Shown: piece by piece, positions 33,712 through 40,231 of the stretch
How the letters are laid out: each line of letters opens with the position of its first letter
Numbering within the stretch: position 1 is the first letter of the stretch
Source of the DNA: Atopobium massiliense
GTDB lineage: Bacteria; Actinomycetota; Coriobacteriia; Coriobacteriales; Atopobiaceae
Direction: 5' to 3'
NCBI GenBank assembly: GCA_900343135.1
Contig: OPYK01000001.1
Span: 1 to 64,000, forward strand
Length of the DNA stretch: 64,000 nucleotides
Program-made: the position numbers and the translations under genes
Notes under the pieces: generated by a model
The model's database searches: none
What the model saw: only the letters and a program-made list of their open reading frames with translations
Told to the model about the DNA's origin: nothing

Positions 33712-35061
33712 CTAGATGCGGGTAACAATGAGCGAAGAATCGGGCATAACAGAAGCAATAGTTACGTCGATGAGCGTGTCGATGGGAATGGTTTTATCAA
33801 CATGCGCATCAAAAAGGCCAGATGTAATGCCATAACCTGCCGTTTGAACAACCACGCTATCGCGCATACCAACAAGTGTTTGAGCTTGCGTGTAGCGCAT
33901 CTGTGCGGCAAGCTCGTGCATGGTGCGGCTACGAGCTGCCATAACATGAGGGTCTACCTGCCCTACTGCCGTGGCTGCAGGTGTACCGCTCCGTTTTGAA
34001 TAGCGGAAAATATGCATTTTTGCAAATCCAATGTCCTTGCAAAACTTGTAACTGGTGGCAAATTCATCATCGGTTTCGCCAGGAAACCCAACAATAAGAT
34101 CAGTACCAAGTGCAACATGCGGCATACGCTCACGTGCACGCTCAACGGCTGAACGGTAAAACGCTGTTGTGTAATTGCGCTTCATACGCCGCAGCGTCGC
34201 ATCGCAGCCCGACTGCAGGCAAATATGCAAAAACTGCGCAATACGACCCTCAGATCCTGCAATAACATCGAGCAATTCATCAGTAATATCGGGCGGCTCA
34301 ATCGACGACAAACGAATACGCTCAATAGACGTTTGTTTCATAATTTCGGAAAGCAAACCCGGAAGACGCAGGCGCGAACCCTTATACTCATAGCGATAAT
34401 CACCAAGGTTAATGCCGGTGAGCACCACCTCGTGTGCACCATGGGCCTGCGTCGCGCGCACCTGGGATATAATCTCGTCTACATCGGCTGAACACGCGGG
34501 TCCGCGCGCTTTCCACACAATGCAAAATGAGCAGCGGTTATTACAACCGTCCTGCACTTTAATACCGGGGCGTGTGCGACCAGTTGGCGTAGGCGTAGAG
34601 ATGAGGTTTCCGCTATCGTCTACCGAGCCCGCAATGCAGCCAAATTCGTTAAGCACACATGACGCTACCTGCGCTTTATTTACTTGCACATTTACGTTTT
34701 CGGCAATAGACGAAAGCTCATCGGCATGCAAACTCGCTACGCAACCGGTTGCAACCACAAACGGTGTATGCGCAAGCTTCGCCGCGCGGCGCACAACCTT
34801 GCGCGTTTTAGCTTCGGCTTCGCTCGTAACCGCGCAGGTATTTATGATAATAGCGTCAGCTTCGGTTTGTGGCACAACTTCACAGCCAGCGCGCTCAAGC
34901 TCAGAAGCAATTACGTCGGTTTCTACGCGATTTACGCGACAACCAAGGTTAATAAATGCAACTTTTGGCGGGCGCGCAGACTGCGTATCATCAGGTGTAG
35001 ATACAGCTTCTGCAGAAGGCGTGTTTGTTTCTAAAGAGGATGGGTGTGTCAGGCGTTCCAT
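33712..35061 (-). CDS. mtaB: tRNA t6A37 methylthiotransferase MtaB
   Basis: Radical-SAM enzyme making ms2t6A at position 37 of ANN-decoding tRNAs. The 449 residues have INLGCRVNRVETD (LGCRVN is typical of MtaB), the triad CNNRCSFC, SSIEPPDITDELL and VGFPGETDDEF. ATG 35061 has AGGAG at seven bases and is preferred over the GTG at 35067. It follows dnaJ closely, the common dnaJ-mtaB neighbourhood. Confidence 0.93.
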   Translation of the reverse strand: MERLTHPSSLETNTPSAEAVSTPDDTQSARPPKVAFINLGCRVNRVETDVIASELERAGCEVVPQTEADAIIINTCAVTSEAEAKTRKVVRRAAKLAHTPFVVATGCVASLHADELSSIAENVNVQVNKAQVASCVLNEFGCIAGSVDDSGNLISTPTPTGRTRPGIKVQDGCNNRCSFCIVWKARGPACSADVDEIISQVRATQAHGAHEVVLTGINLGDYRYEYKGSRLRLPGLLSEIMKQTSIERIRLSSIEPPDITDELLDVIAGSEGRIAQFLHICLQSGCDATLRRMKRNYTTAFYRSAVERARERMPHVALGTDLIVGFPGETDDEFATSYKFCKDIGFAKMHIFRYSKRSGTPAATAVGQVDPHVMAARSRTMHELAAQMRYTQAQTLVGMRDSVVVQTAGYGITSGLFDAHVDKTIPIDTLIDVTIASVMPDSSLIVTRI

Positions 35062-35069
35062 ACACACTC

Positions 35070-36241: not shown

Positions 36242-37411
36242 TTACATCATAAAAAAGCGAAGAAGTATAAGTGCTGCATATATACACGAAACAATGCATG
36301 CAACTTTGCCGCTTGCCGCTGCATGCAGCCACCAGCGTACAGGGTGCACAACTCCCCGCTTACACAAAAGCATAACGCCCACTACCGCTAATATGCCGAT
36401 AAGAACAATGTCGCTCATTAGCGTTTGGGTAATAATGCGCGCGATACAAAATGGCAGCACAAGGCAGATAAGCTGCGCACCAAGACGCTCAGAAGCAGTA
36501 AGGCGCTCTGAGGCAACTTGGCAACGAATAATCAAATCGCCTGCACGCGCGCCGTAGGTGCCAACATGACCTTTGCCTGCCACGCGAAACTCATCCATGT
36601 CGTGTGTATGCGCAGAAATTGAAACGCGCTCAGAGGCGCTTGCAAGTACGCGTCCCGAACCAGAACACGTGGTACACGCATCAACAACAAGTTTACCTGC
36701 GCCAGCACAATGTGAGCACGTCATAGCATACGAACCAAAGCCGATAAGCGTGCGCAAATCGAGCGTAAGCGTACCTGTACCATCGCACACGGAGCACTCA
36801 ACAACATGCGAAGCAATATCGCGCGCGGGGTCTTCATCGAGCGTTGGCGTTTCTATACCATGCGCATGACAGTGCTCACAAGGTACGTAGCACTTGTAAT
36901 TAAACGATTGGGTTATACCGTCTTTTGCCATATCGTCAGAAAGCTGCACTTCAATAACGATATCCTTACCATCTTGAGGTTTATAGGCACACACGGAAGG
37001 CGCGGCTTGCGTGCGGCGACCAAACCCATCGCTGGTATCAAACCCGCCAAAACCACCAAAATCGGTAAACCCGCCAAAGCCGCCCATAGAGGCAAAAATG
37101 TCGCTGAGATCGTAAAAATCGCCCGTTGAATAGGAGCCTTGGCCATACGCACCACTGCCATAGGAACCCGCACCGGCAGTACTACCGGCAAAGGGATTGC
37201 CGTGAAGCTGCGCAGTGTAGCGTGCACGCTTTTTTTCGTCTGAAAGCACCGCGTATGCTTCAGATACCTGCTTAAACTTTTCTTCTGCATCGGGCGCTTT
37301 GTTAACGTCGGGGTGCAGCGTGCGTGCCTTTTGCTGAAATGCTTTACGAATTTCGGCGGCTGTTGCATCCTCGGATACGCCAAGAATATCGTAGTAGTTG
37401 CTTTGTGCCAT
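36242..37411 (-). CDS. J-domain protein with C-terminal membrane segments
   Basis: The product has 389 residues. The J domain (about 1-65) has HPDV; the Gly/Tyr/Phe-rich region includes FGGFTDFGGFGGF. Four CxxC pairs form a zinc region (CEHCHAHG, CSVCDGTG, CSHCAGAG, CTTCSGSG), and FRVAGKGHVGTYGARAGDLII is the usual end of the first peptide-binding domain. The second peptide-binding domain is replaced by three hydrophobic segments (about 314-332, 334-350, 368-387). It is therefore probably membrane-anchored with the J domain in the cytoplasm. Start ATG 37411 has GAGGT. It precedes dnaJ, and both begin MAQS, suggesting duplication. Confidence 0.85.
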   Translation of the reverse strand: MAQSNYYDILGVSEDATAAEIRKAFQQKARTLHPDVNKAPDAEEKFKQVSEAYAVLSDEKKRARYTAQLHGNPFAGSTAGAGSYGSGAYGQGSYSTGDFYDLSDIFASMGGFGGFTDFGGFGGFDTSDGFGRRTQAAPSVCAYKPQDGKDIVIEVQLSDDMAKDGITQSFNYKCYVPCEHCHAHGIETPTLDEDPARDIASHVVECSVCDGTGTLTLDLRTLIGFGSYAMTCSHCAGAGKLVVDACTTCSGSGRVLASASERVSISAHTHDMDEFRVAGKGHVGTYGARAGDLIIRCQVASERLTASERLGAQLICLVLPFCIARIITQTLMSDIVLIGILAVVGVMLLCKRGVVHPVRWWLHAAASGKVACIVSCIYAALILLRFFMM

Positions 37412-37572: not shown

Positions 37573-38904
37573 TCATGCGCTCACGTGCAGCGTAAAAGGC
37601 GGCTCTTGTGCCAGCCCCCACAAGCGCTCAAATAGCGCGTTTCCCATAAGCCAGCCCGCTTCTGTAGGAAGAATGCGCCCATCTGCGCGCACAATAAGCG
37701 AAAAATGCTCAAGCTCCTCTAAGAGCGCATCCATGGTGCTTGTTCCAAAAACGTCATAGGCATGTGTAAGAAGATCGGGCTCAATACCGCAGGTACAACG
37801 CGCTTGTAGCATGAGGTCTTCTGCGGTACATTGCTCCTCATTAAAAAATTCAAGGGTGAGATTTCGATGCTGCCATCCCGGGTATGCACACATATGCGCA
37901 CGTGAGTCGTTTACCGTAATACGCACACGCACCACACTGGTTGTACGTTCAGGAAGCTGCGGCATATGTTTCCGCAACATGTCGTATTGCCACGCCGTAA
38001 GCATCGAAGCTGCACTTGTACCAACACCCATGTAGGACTCTTGTGTCCAGTAGGCGCGGTTATGCGCACACGCGTATAACGGCACCTGAGCAGATGTTGC
38101 AGAGTGCGTATCGTGCGACATTACGCGCGCATAAGACGCCACTTCATAGCGCACAAACCCTATTTCCTGCAATATGCGCGCTGCTGCTTTCATGCGCGCC
38201 GCCTGCACCAAATCGTTATTAAACGCAGGATGTACACTGCTATAACGCTTCCAAAACGCCGTATGCGGCTCTATCGCAAGTGGATAGATGCTTATGTGTG
38301 ATATGCCCTGCTCACAGCAAAGCACAAGACTTTGATACCACGAGGCAGGCGTTTGATATGGAATAGCACACATCAGATCGCATGACACACATAGTCCCTG
38401 CGTTGCTGCGCAGCGCAGGCGCGACAAGGCTTGCCTTGCCGTATGCGTTCTTCCAAGCGCACGCAGCTCACGCTCATGGCACGACTGCACGCCAAACGAA
38501 ATGCGTGTAAGCGGGCTTTGAGCAAGCTGTGCGAGTAGTTCATCGGATGTAGAATCGGGGTTTGCTTCGCAGCTAAATTCCACAGGCGAGCACAATTCAG
38601 CAATGCTCGAAATAAGCTCGGGCAGCTTGGAGCCAAGACAGGTTGGTGTGCCGCCACCAATATATGCCGTTTGTACATCGCACAATAATCCCCATGATGC
38701 AAGCTGCTGTATATCGGTGCGCACAGCCGCAAGGTAGCGGTCGCGATCGTTAGTATTGGCTGCATAGGGCCACGAAGCAAAATCGCAATAGCCACATTTT
38801 TGCGAGCAAAACGGAATATGCACATACAAACTGTAAGCGCTATGAGCATCTCGACGCTCAGCATAGGTATACGTGCGCGGACGTACAACCTTATGAGCGT
38901 TCAT
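37573..38904 (-). CDS. hemW: HemW-like radical SAM protein
   Basis: Coproporphyrinogen-dehydrogenase-like radical-SAM protein; characterised HemW members act as heme chaperones. About 443 residues. It contains YVHIPFCSQKCGYCDF (CxxxCxxC plus a downstream Cys in the HemW position), AYIGGGTPT and GVQSCHERELRALGRTH. The start is unclear: ATG 38904 and ATG 38913 both overlap dus by a few bases and neither has a strong ribosome site. It follows lepA-dus in one unit, and a lepA-hemW-hrcA-dnaJ order is common, but hrcA is missing here. Confidence 0.88.
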   Translation of the reverse strand: MNAHKVVRPRTYTYAERRDAHSAYSLYVHIPFCSQKCGYCDFASWPYAANTNDRDRYLAAVRTDIQQLASWGLLCDVQTAYIGGGTPTCLGSKLPELISSIAELCSPVEFSCEANPDSTSDELLAQLAQSPLTRISFGVQSCHERELRALGRTHTARQALSRLRCAATQGLCVSCDLMCAIPYQTPASWYQSLVLCCEQGISHISIYPLAIEPHTAFWKRYSSVHPAFNNDLVQAARMKAAARILQEIGFVRYEVASYARVMSHDTHSATSAQVPLYACAHNRAYWTQESYMGVGTSAASMLTAWQYDMLRKHMPQLPERTTSVVRVRITVNDSRAHMCAYPGWQHRNLTLEFFNEEQCTAEDLMLQARCTCGIEPDLLTHAYDVFGTSTMDALLEELEHFSLIVRADGRILPTEAGWLMGNALFERLWGLAQEPPFTLHVSA

Positions 38905-40231
38905 GAGAGCCATCCAGAAAGACTGACGCTTGCAAGGAAGATGAGCTTGGATCGACAACGGTTGTATCAACGTGTTTGTTGTTAATTGCACATACAGTAT
39001 CGCTGGTGCAAACGGAGTCTTCTAACTCGTTTATACACGCTAAAAAGTCGCTAAGCGTTTTGCACGTCATAAACCGCGCGCGCCAGGCTTTTGCGTGAGG
39101 AAATGCTGCAAGATACCAGCTCATAATGCTTCGCGCGCGAGCCATGTGGCTGCCGTGAGCTGCCAATAAGTGAACAGAAAGGCGCATAGCGGCAAGGCGC
39201 GCGGATGTGCTGCGTCTAAACGGTGCCAACGTCGACACATCCGCAGACATATCAAGAGTACTAGTGCAAACAGCGCAACCATTTGAAGCACTATCATGCG
39301 TTTTAGCGTGTTGCAGCTGAGAAAAAAGCGTGTATGCGTCCGAAAAAATCCAGGGATTACCATACGTGCCGCGTGCAATCATAACGCCAGCTACGCCGGG
39401 TATAGAAGCAAGTGTGCATGCGCGCTCAGGCGTAAGAATATCACCCGATGCAATCGTAGGCACCGAAATGGCATGTGCCACGCGCTCAATGCAAGCATCA
39501 CACGAGTTGCCACTGTAAAGCTGCTTGGCATAGCGTCCATGCACCGTGATAGCAGCCGCACCAGCATCTTCGAGCACACGCGCAAACTCGCTTGCCGTTT
39601 CATTACCCTGCTCATAGCCACGCCGAATTTTGCAGGTAACAGCAACCGAAGTTTCGGCGCACAGCGCGCGAACGATATCAGCTGCTTTCTCGGGCGTGCA
39701 CATAAGTGCGCTTCCCTCGCCTTTTTTTGTTACCTTAGCAACGGGGCACGCCATGTTCACATCAAAAAACAACAAGCGATCAGAAAGCCGTTCGGCTATA
39801 CGCGCAGCCGCCGCACGAAATTGATCGGGTTTTGAGCCAAAAAGCTGGACGACCAGGGGTTTTTCGACATCAGATGGGCAAATAAGATCCCAGGTTTTAT
39901 CGCTATCATAGTGAAGGCCGGCAACCGAAACCATTTCGCTATACGCAAAGCCCGCCCCTGCACATTCATTTACAATACGGTAACTTTTGTCGCTTACCGA
40001 TGCCATAGGAGCAGCTACAAAGGGATGTTTGGCAAATATACCGGGAATATCATCGCGCGAAAGTGGTGCGAGCTGCGTTGCATTCGCTGCATGCGTCATT
40101 GTACCCTGCGAAATGACAGCATTGCTCACCACATCGTTCCATGCGCACAACTCTGCCTGTGGCGCATAGGTTTGTATGATCTGCGCAACAGCACGCGTAT
40201 CAACCTGCTGCGACACAAAAGGAGCATGCAC
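38891..40231 (-). CDS. dus: tRNA-dihydrouridine synthase (Dus)
   Basis: FMN enzyme that reduces uridine in the D-loop of tRNA. The 446 residues contain VAAPMASVSDKSYR, SEMVSVAGL, QLFGSKPDQF, the catalytic cysteine in NMACPVAKV, TVHGRYAKQLYSG and GVMIARGTYGNPWIF. An extra N-terminal stretch of about 50 residues precedes the core; an internal ATG opening MTHAANATQ is an alternative start. The GTG start overlaps the lepA stop (TAGTG), so translation is probably coupled. The subfamily looks closest to DusB. Confidence 0.88.
   Translation of the reverse strand: MHAPFVSQQVDTRAVAQIIQTYAPQAELCAWNDVVSNAVISQGTMTHAANATQLAPLSRDDIPGIFAKHPFVAAPMASVSDKSYRIVNECAGAGFAYSEMVSVAGLHYDSDKTWDLICPSDVEKPLVVQLFGSKPDQFRAAAARIAERLSDRLLFFDVNMACPVAKVTKKGEGSALMCTPEKAADIVRALCAETSVAVTCKIRRGYEQGNETASEFARVLEDAGAAAITVHGRYAKQLYSGNSCDACIERVAHAISVPTIASGDILTPERACTLASIPGVAGVMIARGTYGNPWIFSDAYTLFSQLQHAKTHDSASNGCAVCTSTLDMSADVSTLAPFRRSTSARLAAMRLSVHLLAAHGSHMARARSIMSWYLAAFPHAKAWRARFMTCKTLSDFLACINELEDSVCTSDTVCAINNKHVDTTVVDPSSSSLQASVFLDGSHERS

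Follow-up and report, generated by a model that had tools for sequence, protein, structure and literature searches.

Introduction

The yeast protein Xdj1 is a class A J protein, and its CTD-II is not exchanged for transmembrane (TM) helices. Membrane-bound J proteins that act with DnaK are already established, for example DjlA of Escherichia coli (PMC11709261). In that account, DjlA begins with a single TM helix, continues with a TerB-like domain and ends in the J domain, and it is described as having no specific substrate-binding domain; its TM helix is termed a dimerisation domain, and its induction of Rcs requires both membrane placement and the J domain (PMC11709261). For two further E. 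coli proteins, HscC is given as the partner of DjlC, and the same is assumed for DjlB (PMC8215388).

Here we analyzed a window of 64,000 nucleotides from Atopobium massiliense that encodes a DnaJ-like protein, TM-DnaJ (TMJ), ending in predicted TM helices. The accounts cited above describe DjlA, DjlB and DjlC as class C proteins without the zinc-finger and client-binding domains of DnaJ, both of which TMJ keeps. A conserved protein of this kind would show how a general DnaJ becomes a membrane-specific chaperone. Moreover, TMJ apparently arose by a single gain and is carried by nearly all members of two families, so that comparison with the paralogue encoded next to it makes the contribution of CTD-II and the dimerisation domain to DnaJ directly testable. 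In searches of the open literature, no listed title or abstract dealt with this protein; the architecture survey of Barriot et al. 2020 (cited in PMC8215388) may list it, and priority for the architecture is thus uncertain.

Domain architecture of TMJ

The TMJ frame starts with MAQSNYYD at position 37411 and stops at 36242 (Table 1). The initial annotation had recognized a J domain, a Gly/Phe (G/F) region, four CxxC pairs and the end of the first peptide-binding domain, all of which were borne out by Pfam and AlphaFold2. The CxxC pairs lie at residues 178, 206, 232 and 246, and the profile DnaJ_CXXCXGXG (PF00684) scored above its cut-off at residues 178–253; the window copy deviates from CxxCxGxG in its first repeat, CEHCHAHG. 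Only a fragment of DnaJ_C was matched (profile positions 33–76 of 152, under the cut-off). The NCBIfam profile DnaJ_bact (TIGR02349) aligned over positions 1–271 of 354 with 194.3 bits, below the equivalog cut-off of 377.2 bits, under which the neighboring dnaJ likewise falls. The end of this profile match, the hydrophobicity and the AlphaFold2 model agree that CTD-II and the C-terminal dimerisation domain are missing from TMJ and that predicted TM helices stand in their place. In the model (60 sequences in the alignment; mean pLDDT 82.3, pTM 0.59), the J domain is folded, the G/F linker is disordered at residues 75–139, and CTD-I, the first beta-sandwich domain, is complete and carries the zinc-finger insert. 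A Foldseek search revealed that the CTD-I region resembles DnaJA2, Streptococcus pneumoniae DnaJ and Ydj1.

Table 1. Positions of TMJ, its parts and its neighbors in the window
Feature	Position	Strand	Basis
TM-DnaJ gene (TMJ)	36242..37411	-	389 aa plus stop, single open frame; orthologues found
J domain, residues 5-65, HPD at 33-35	37217..37399	-	Pfam DnaJ 3.7e-24
Gly/Phe linker, residues 66-144, with DIF	36980..37216	-	pLDDT <50 at residues 75-139
CTD-I and inserted zinc-finger region, residues 145-300	36512..36979	-	Pfam, alignment, AlphaFold2, Foldseek
Predicted TM helix 1, residues 306-328	36428..36496	-	hydrophobicity, AlphaFold2, tail-only model
Predicted TM helix 2, residues 335-349 (331-349 in tail-only model)	36365..36409	-	hydrophobicity, AlphaFold2, tail-only model
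Trp-Trp helix in basic TM2-TM3 loop, residues 358-367	36311..36340	-	AlphaFold2, tail-only model
Predicted TM helix 3, residues 369-388	36248..36307	-	hydrophobicity, AlphaFold2, tail-only model
TACAAT, -10-like hexamer, 69 nt before the TMJ start codon	37475..37480	-	hexamer survey
Canonical dnaJ, 366 aa	35070..36170	-	all three Pfam domains; TIGR02349 profile 1-353 at 353.2 bits
hemW, conserved upstream neighbor	37573..38991	-	TIGR00539, below curated cut-off; synteny
mtaB, conserved downstream neighbor	33712..35067	-	TIGR01579, above cut-off; synteny

Sequence comparison covered 76 TMJ copies, namely the window copy and 75 from named loci; five further named loci were set aside because their copies were truncated or split, contained X or escaped the start rule. 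The HPD motif is present in all 76. In a 60-row alignment, HPD, Arg22, Phe25, Lys38 and Lys47 are invariant, as are the eight zinc-finger cysteines in an alignment of 28 rows; one of the 76 copies has only three CxxC pairs. From the invariant HPD and the other J-domain residues we infer that TMJ would recruit DnaK. A dnaK-grpE-class B dnaJ cluster lies elsewhere in the genome, and its products are possible partners.

The predicted membrane tail

A hydrophobicity scan placed the three hydrophobic segments of TMJ at residues 311–327, 334–350 and 370–386. The tail block exceeds pLDDT 90 in the AlphaFold2 model, and modeling the tail by itself gave a concordant result (pLDDT 89.8). The number of hydrophobic tail segments in the 76 aligned copies is three in 64, two in six and four in six, so that 12 copies deviate from three. 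Ahead of the tail, 75 of the 76 have no hydrophobic segment. Across 121 TMJ frames, some of them genes fetched twice, the C-terminal ends scored at least 1.85, against at most 1.82 for the C-terminal parts of 125 DnaJs and at most 1.64 for 17 outgroup DnaJs, a separation that is narrow at its extremes. Trp360 is invariant in both the 28-row and the 60-row alignments, and a Trp-Trp pair is found in the tail of 72 of the 76 copies. A cysteine occurs among the last 45 residues in 69 of the 76, the window copy being one of those without it. The tails of L093, L098, L103, L106, L108, L109 and L110 have no C-terminal cysteine and carry an extra terminal hydrophobic stretch, most of them with basic last residues.

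The loop between TM1 and TM2 is essentially uncharged (mean 0.09 Lys plus Arg) and that between TM2 and TM3 is basic (mean 3.88), so by the positive-inside rule the soluble domains are expected inside. The C-terminal stretch, with a mean of 1.39 Lys plus Arg, is a mild argument against an external C-terminus. Conservation, charge pattern and predicted fold therefore support the earlier proposal that the tail is a membrane anchor. Judged from the sequences, the tail probably resides in the cytoplasmic membrane, and the J domain would face the cytosol together with the zinc fingers and CTD-I.

Derivation of the tail from a known membrane family was rejected, since no significant Pfam, PDB-sequence or fold relative was found. 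In a Pfam search with 28 TMJ tails, the lowest E value among the best 25 of 31 families was 0.0026, for one member, and none of these families was hit by more than three tails; the tail found nothing better than E 0.72 among PDB sequences and nothing better than E 2.6 by Foldseek. When all candidates in f10 genomes were scored, 57 of 58 gave a single tail match, which leaves no obvious donor gene; the other, G270, has a second, partial match at a contig end.

Distribution and conservation of the tailed family

A search with the tail profile found the architecture in other Coriobacteriia. Matches, counted by hand from the result rows, occurred in 174 of 396 genomes of the class, 111 from family f1, 61 from f10 and one each from f3 and f14. 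The f14 match (G084) was discarded as chance, being a 41-aa frame with two stops. In the phylum sample, 14 of 296 genomes matched, every one from f1 or f10, and the remaining families of both samples, class and phylum, gave no credible match. Tails that have diverged escape the profile, and more diverged relatives may exist elsewhere. Among the f3 genomes, two near-identical tailed copies occur in G046, G038 has a diverged tail that the profile scores at only E 0.42, and no tailed copy was seen in G054 (89% complete, 470 contigs). Family f1 is Atopobiaceae, according to the tree labels on named loci and to f1 genome G019, whose compared stretch is identical to Olsenella porci; f10 probably corresponds to Coriobacteriaceae and f2 to Eggerthellaceae. 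The tail is present in 35 of 37 f1 genomes (the two without it are 57% and 79% complete) and in all 58 f10 genomes, each at least 90% complete. Named TMJ loci include Atopobium, Olsenella, Parafannyhessea and Thermophilibacter, and TMJ is almost always single-copy.

It was conceivable that the tail is a product of a frameshift or misassembly, or that TMJ is a decaying pseudogene of a duplicated dnaJ. One record lends itself to this reading, that of Atopobium minutum DSM 20586 (L094:4420-5516), in which TMJ is split in the G/F region into two overlapping frames by a frameshift that is either natural or an error of sequencing. Against it, TMJ frames are intact in at least 75 of 80 named loci, and the tail is in frame with positions conserved across many species. 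In addition, among 30 independent TMJ pairs the eight most closely related gave tail dN/dS values of 0.04–0.36, well below 1, and by this measure the tail is under purifying selection in them. We thus rejected an artefact as the source of the tail and regard decay as vanishingly improbable; the TMJ architecture is a real, conserved family. The tail nevertheless tolerates much change: summed over the 30 pairs (Nei-Gojobori; most pairs divergent, many near saturation), its dN/dS was 0.46, compared with 0.12 for the J domain and 0.24 for the zinc finger together with CTD-I, and three distant pairs gave tail values above 1.

Another difference from DnaJ lies in the G/F region, where a D[ILV]F motif is present in 74 of 74 neighboring DnaJs versus one of 76 TMJs, the window copy. 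None of 39 further, partly overlapping TMJ copies has DIF. Its context in the window is DLSDIF in TMJ and DMSDIF in the neighboring dnaJ, and the window copy either retained or regained the motif. DIF is reportedly linked to regulation of the DnaK cycle, going by the title of Cajo et al. 2006 (cited in PMC3486835). A control element retained by soluble DnaJ thus seems to have been lost from the TMJ family, and the pattern of loss suggests that TMJ may switch DnaK on differently than soluble DnaJ does.

Locus and origin of TMJ

As initially noted, a normal dnaJ accompanies TMJ; it lies 71 bp downstream. The gene order is lepA-dusB-hemW-TMJ-dnaJ-mtaB-ybeY, in which the DusB and HemW names score below curated cut-offs in the window. 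A dnaJ is found downstream of TMJ in 79 of 80 named loci, including L075, where it stands behind hrcA. At L050 (Olsenella phocaeensis), TMJ and mtaB are present and no dnaJ frame was recognized between them. Among 11 loci from families without TMJ, hrcA lies directly ahead of dnaJ in seven, the rest being those of f6 and f7 and one f5 locus at a contig end. All five loci that keep both genes (L075, L115, L116, L117 and L118) have the order TMJ-hrcA-dnaJ, most simply explained by an entry of TMJ between hemW and hrcA. Hence TMJ apparently was inserted upstream of hrcA and not directly beside dnaJ.

We built a locus tree from five genes of 16 loci, with one locus each of f7, f3 and f10 and with f6 chosen as the root. 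With strong support, f3 groups with f1 plus f10 and f7 lies next outside; f10 and f1 are not cleanly separated. The f7 locus, from one genome, is intact without TMJ. This topology fits a single gain of TMJ in the ancestor of f3, f1 and f10. A 64-row protein tree, omitting three short or odd J frames, the recombinant L114 TMJ and the start-less L118 TMJ, united the 19 TMJ rows in one clade (100/99) with f3 branching first, and united TMJs with the DnaJs of the order against 16 DnaJs from other members of the phylum (99/99). The TM clade lies outside the order's DnaJs in this tree; the AU test did not reject its grouping with the f1/f10 DnaJs (p 0.094) or the f1/f10/f3 DnaJs (p 0.118). The initial annotation had taken TMJ for a possible duplicate of dnaJ. 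Paralogy is supported by the 99/99 clade. TMJ is not a recent local duplicate, however; three families share it as a trait of their lineage. In the f3 genome G046 (L114:3855-6332), tandem TMJs are identical from HPD onwards and the second has the N-terminus of the neighboring dnaJ, which suggests recombination or misassembly.

TMJ might be a membrane-tethered regulator whose tail senses the state of the membrane and alters the amount of free DnaK, replacing a lost HrcA-type heat-shock control. The insertion point adjoins hrcA, and hrcA was detected in four of 37 f1, none of three f10 and none of three f3 genomes compared with 11 of the remaining 17, several of these genomes being incomplete. 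However, four f1 genomes and the named locus L075 keep hrcA and TMJ together, and f6 (0/3) and f7 (0/1) lack hrcA yet have no TMJ. No sensor domain was recognized in TMJ. CIRCE matches upstream of TMJ were no better than those in shuffles over 76 regions, none with up to three mismatches occurs in the window, and HAIR-like sites with three mismatches were found in two of 76 regions (L081 and L085), so we rejected control of TMJ by CIRCE or HAIR. We regard such a regulator as very unlikely. The 140 nt preceding the TMJ start contained one of ten -10-like hexamers in 65 of 74 regions versus seven of 74 after mononucleotide shuffling, mostly 41–90 nt before the start; two of the 76 regions were too short for this survey. 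The upstream sequences thus suggest a standing promoter for TMJ rather than known heat-shock control.

Co-distribution with a second FtsH

FtsH was counted by hand, at E values up to 1e-45, as a marker of membrane proteostasis. At least two copies were found in 46 of 51 f1, 44 of 44 f10 and the single f3 genome, versus one of 49 f2, none of one f6 and two of 50 other class genomes; one of these 50 had no FtsH that passed the threshold. A quick tree was built from 19 FtsH sequences, in which the second copies (FtsH2) form their own clade with members only from f1, f10, f3 and f7. The two FtsH genes at G000:C7:105967-106527 and G000:C9:15142-15705, outside the window, belong to separate clades. 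A smaller count found a single copy in G009, G013 and G014 among 37 f1 genomes.

This pattern suggests a partnership of TMJ with the second FtsH in membrane proteostasis. In its explicit form, TMJ and DnaK would unfold or hold membrane clients and pass them to FtsH2 as a membrane quality-control module. Beyond the near-universal second FtsH in the TMJ families f1, f10 and f3 and its rarity in others, it is favored by the five f1 genomes with a single FtsH, which all belong to genus g15 and of which G014, the one placed in the tree, has the FtsH2 type. Several facts weigh against it. In the one f7 genome, FtsH2 is present and the intact locus lacks TMJ, showing that the two genes can part, and f7 falls outside (f3,(f1,f10)) in the locus tree rooted on f6, so that few independent events are involved. 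Two f8 genomes also have second, weaker M41 matches, and the TMJ and FtsH2 genes are not adjacent, with some 70 kb between them in this genome. We consider such a module unlikely, and the co-distribution is a lineage-level association with perhaps one or two underlying events. A dedicated triage machine for membrane proteins in Atopobiaceae and its sister family, composed of TMJ, DnaK and the lineage-specific second FtsH and with the TM bundle replacing the dimerisation domain, is a decidedly doubtful proposal.

A putative model of TMJ function and comparison with known systems

Given the HPD motif and key J-domain residues, the retained CTD-I, the conserved helical tail and the fixed locus, TMJ is probably a membrane-anchored DnaK co-chaperone derived from a class A DnaJ. 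Points against this reading are the variable helix number, the extra hydrophobic stretch at some C-termini, the change that the tail tolerates and, mildly, the charge of the C-terminal stretch, as well as the missing C-terminal cysteine and the DIF of the window copy. While architecture, conservation, locus and lineage are shown, membrane insertion, stimulation of DnaK, clients and oligomeric state are proposed. By analogy with DjlA, TMJ would be expected to recruit DnaK to the cytosolic side of the membrane. CTD-I would catch exposed segments of membrane or secretory clients there, and the J domain would load DnaK onto the client on the spot. Its clients are probably membrane proteins that are still nascent or have misfolded. 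Since CTD-I and the zinc fingers are kept, unlike in DjlA, TMJ can presumably select its clients itself. Conserved glycines in the tail could serve dimerisation, as the TM helix of DjlA is said to do.

Among known systems, canonical class A DnaJ (TIGR02349) shares with TMJ the J domain, the G/F region, the four-CxxC zinc finger, CTD-I, the locus and the ancestry. It differs in that TMJ lacks CTD-II and the dimerisation domain, having predicted TM helices there, and that DIF is absent from 75 of 76 TMJ copies. DjlA of E. coli and Legionella is described as similarly membrane-anchored, its J domain lying in the cytosol and cooperating with DnaK (PMC11709261, PMC10754441). In TMJ, by contrast, the J domain is N-terminal, and a C-terminal anchor of several helices follows the retained zinc finger and CTD-I; Pfam and AlphaFold2 thus place its parts in the reverse of the DjlA order, N-terminal TM helix and C-terminal J domain. 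DjlB and DjlC of E. coli come closer in topology, as the C-terminus anchors the J protein, with DjlC shown in the plasma membrane; unlike TMJ, they are class C and are reported there to have only the J domain in common with DnaJ (PMC8215388). Yeast Xdj1 resembles TMJ as a J protein that passes precursors on at a membrane; it is eukaryotic, however, and is described as binding the TOM receptor Tom22 via its substrate-binding domain (PMC12953747).
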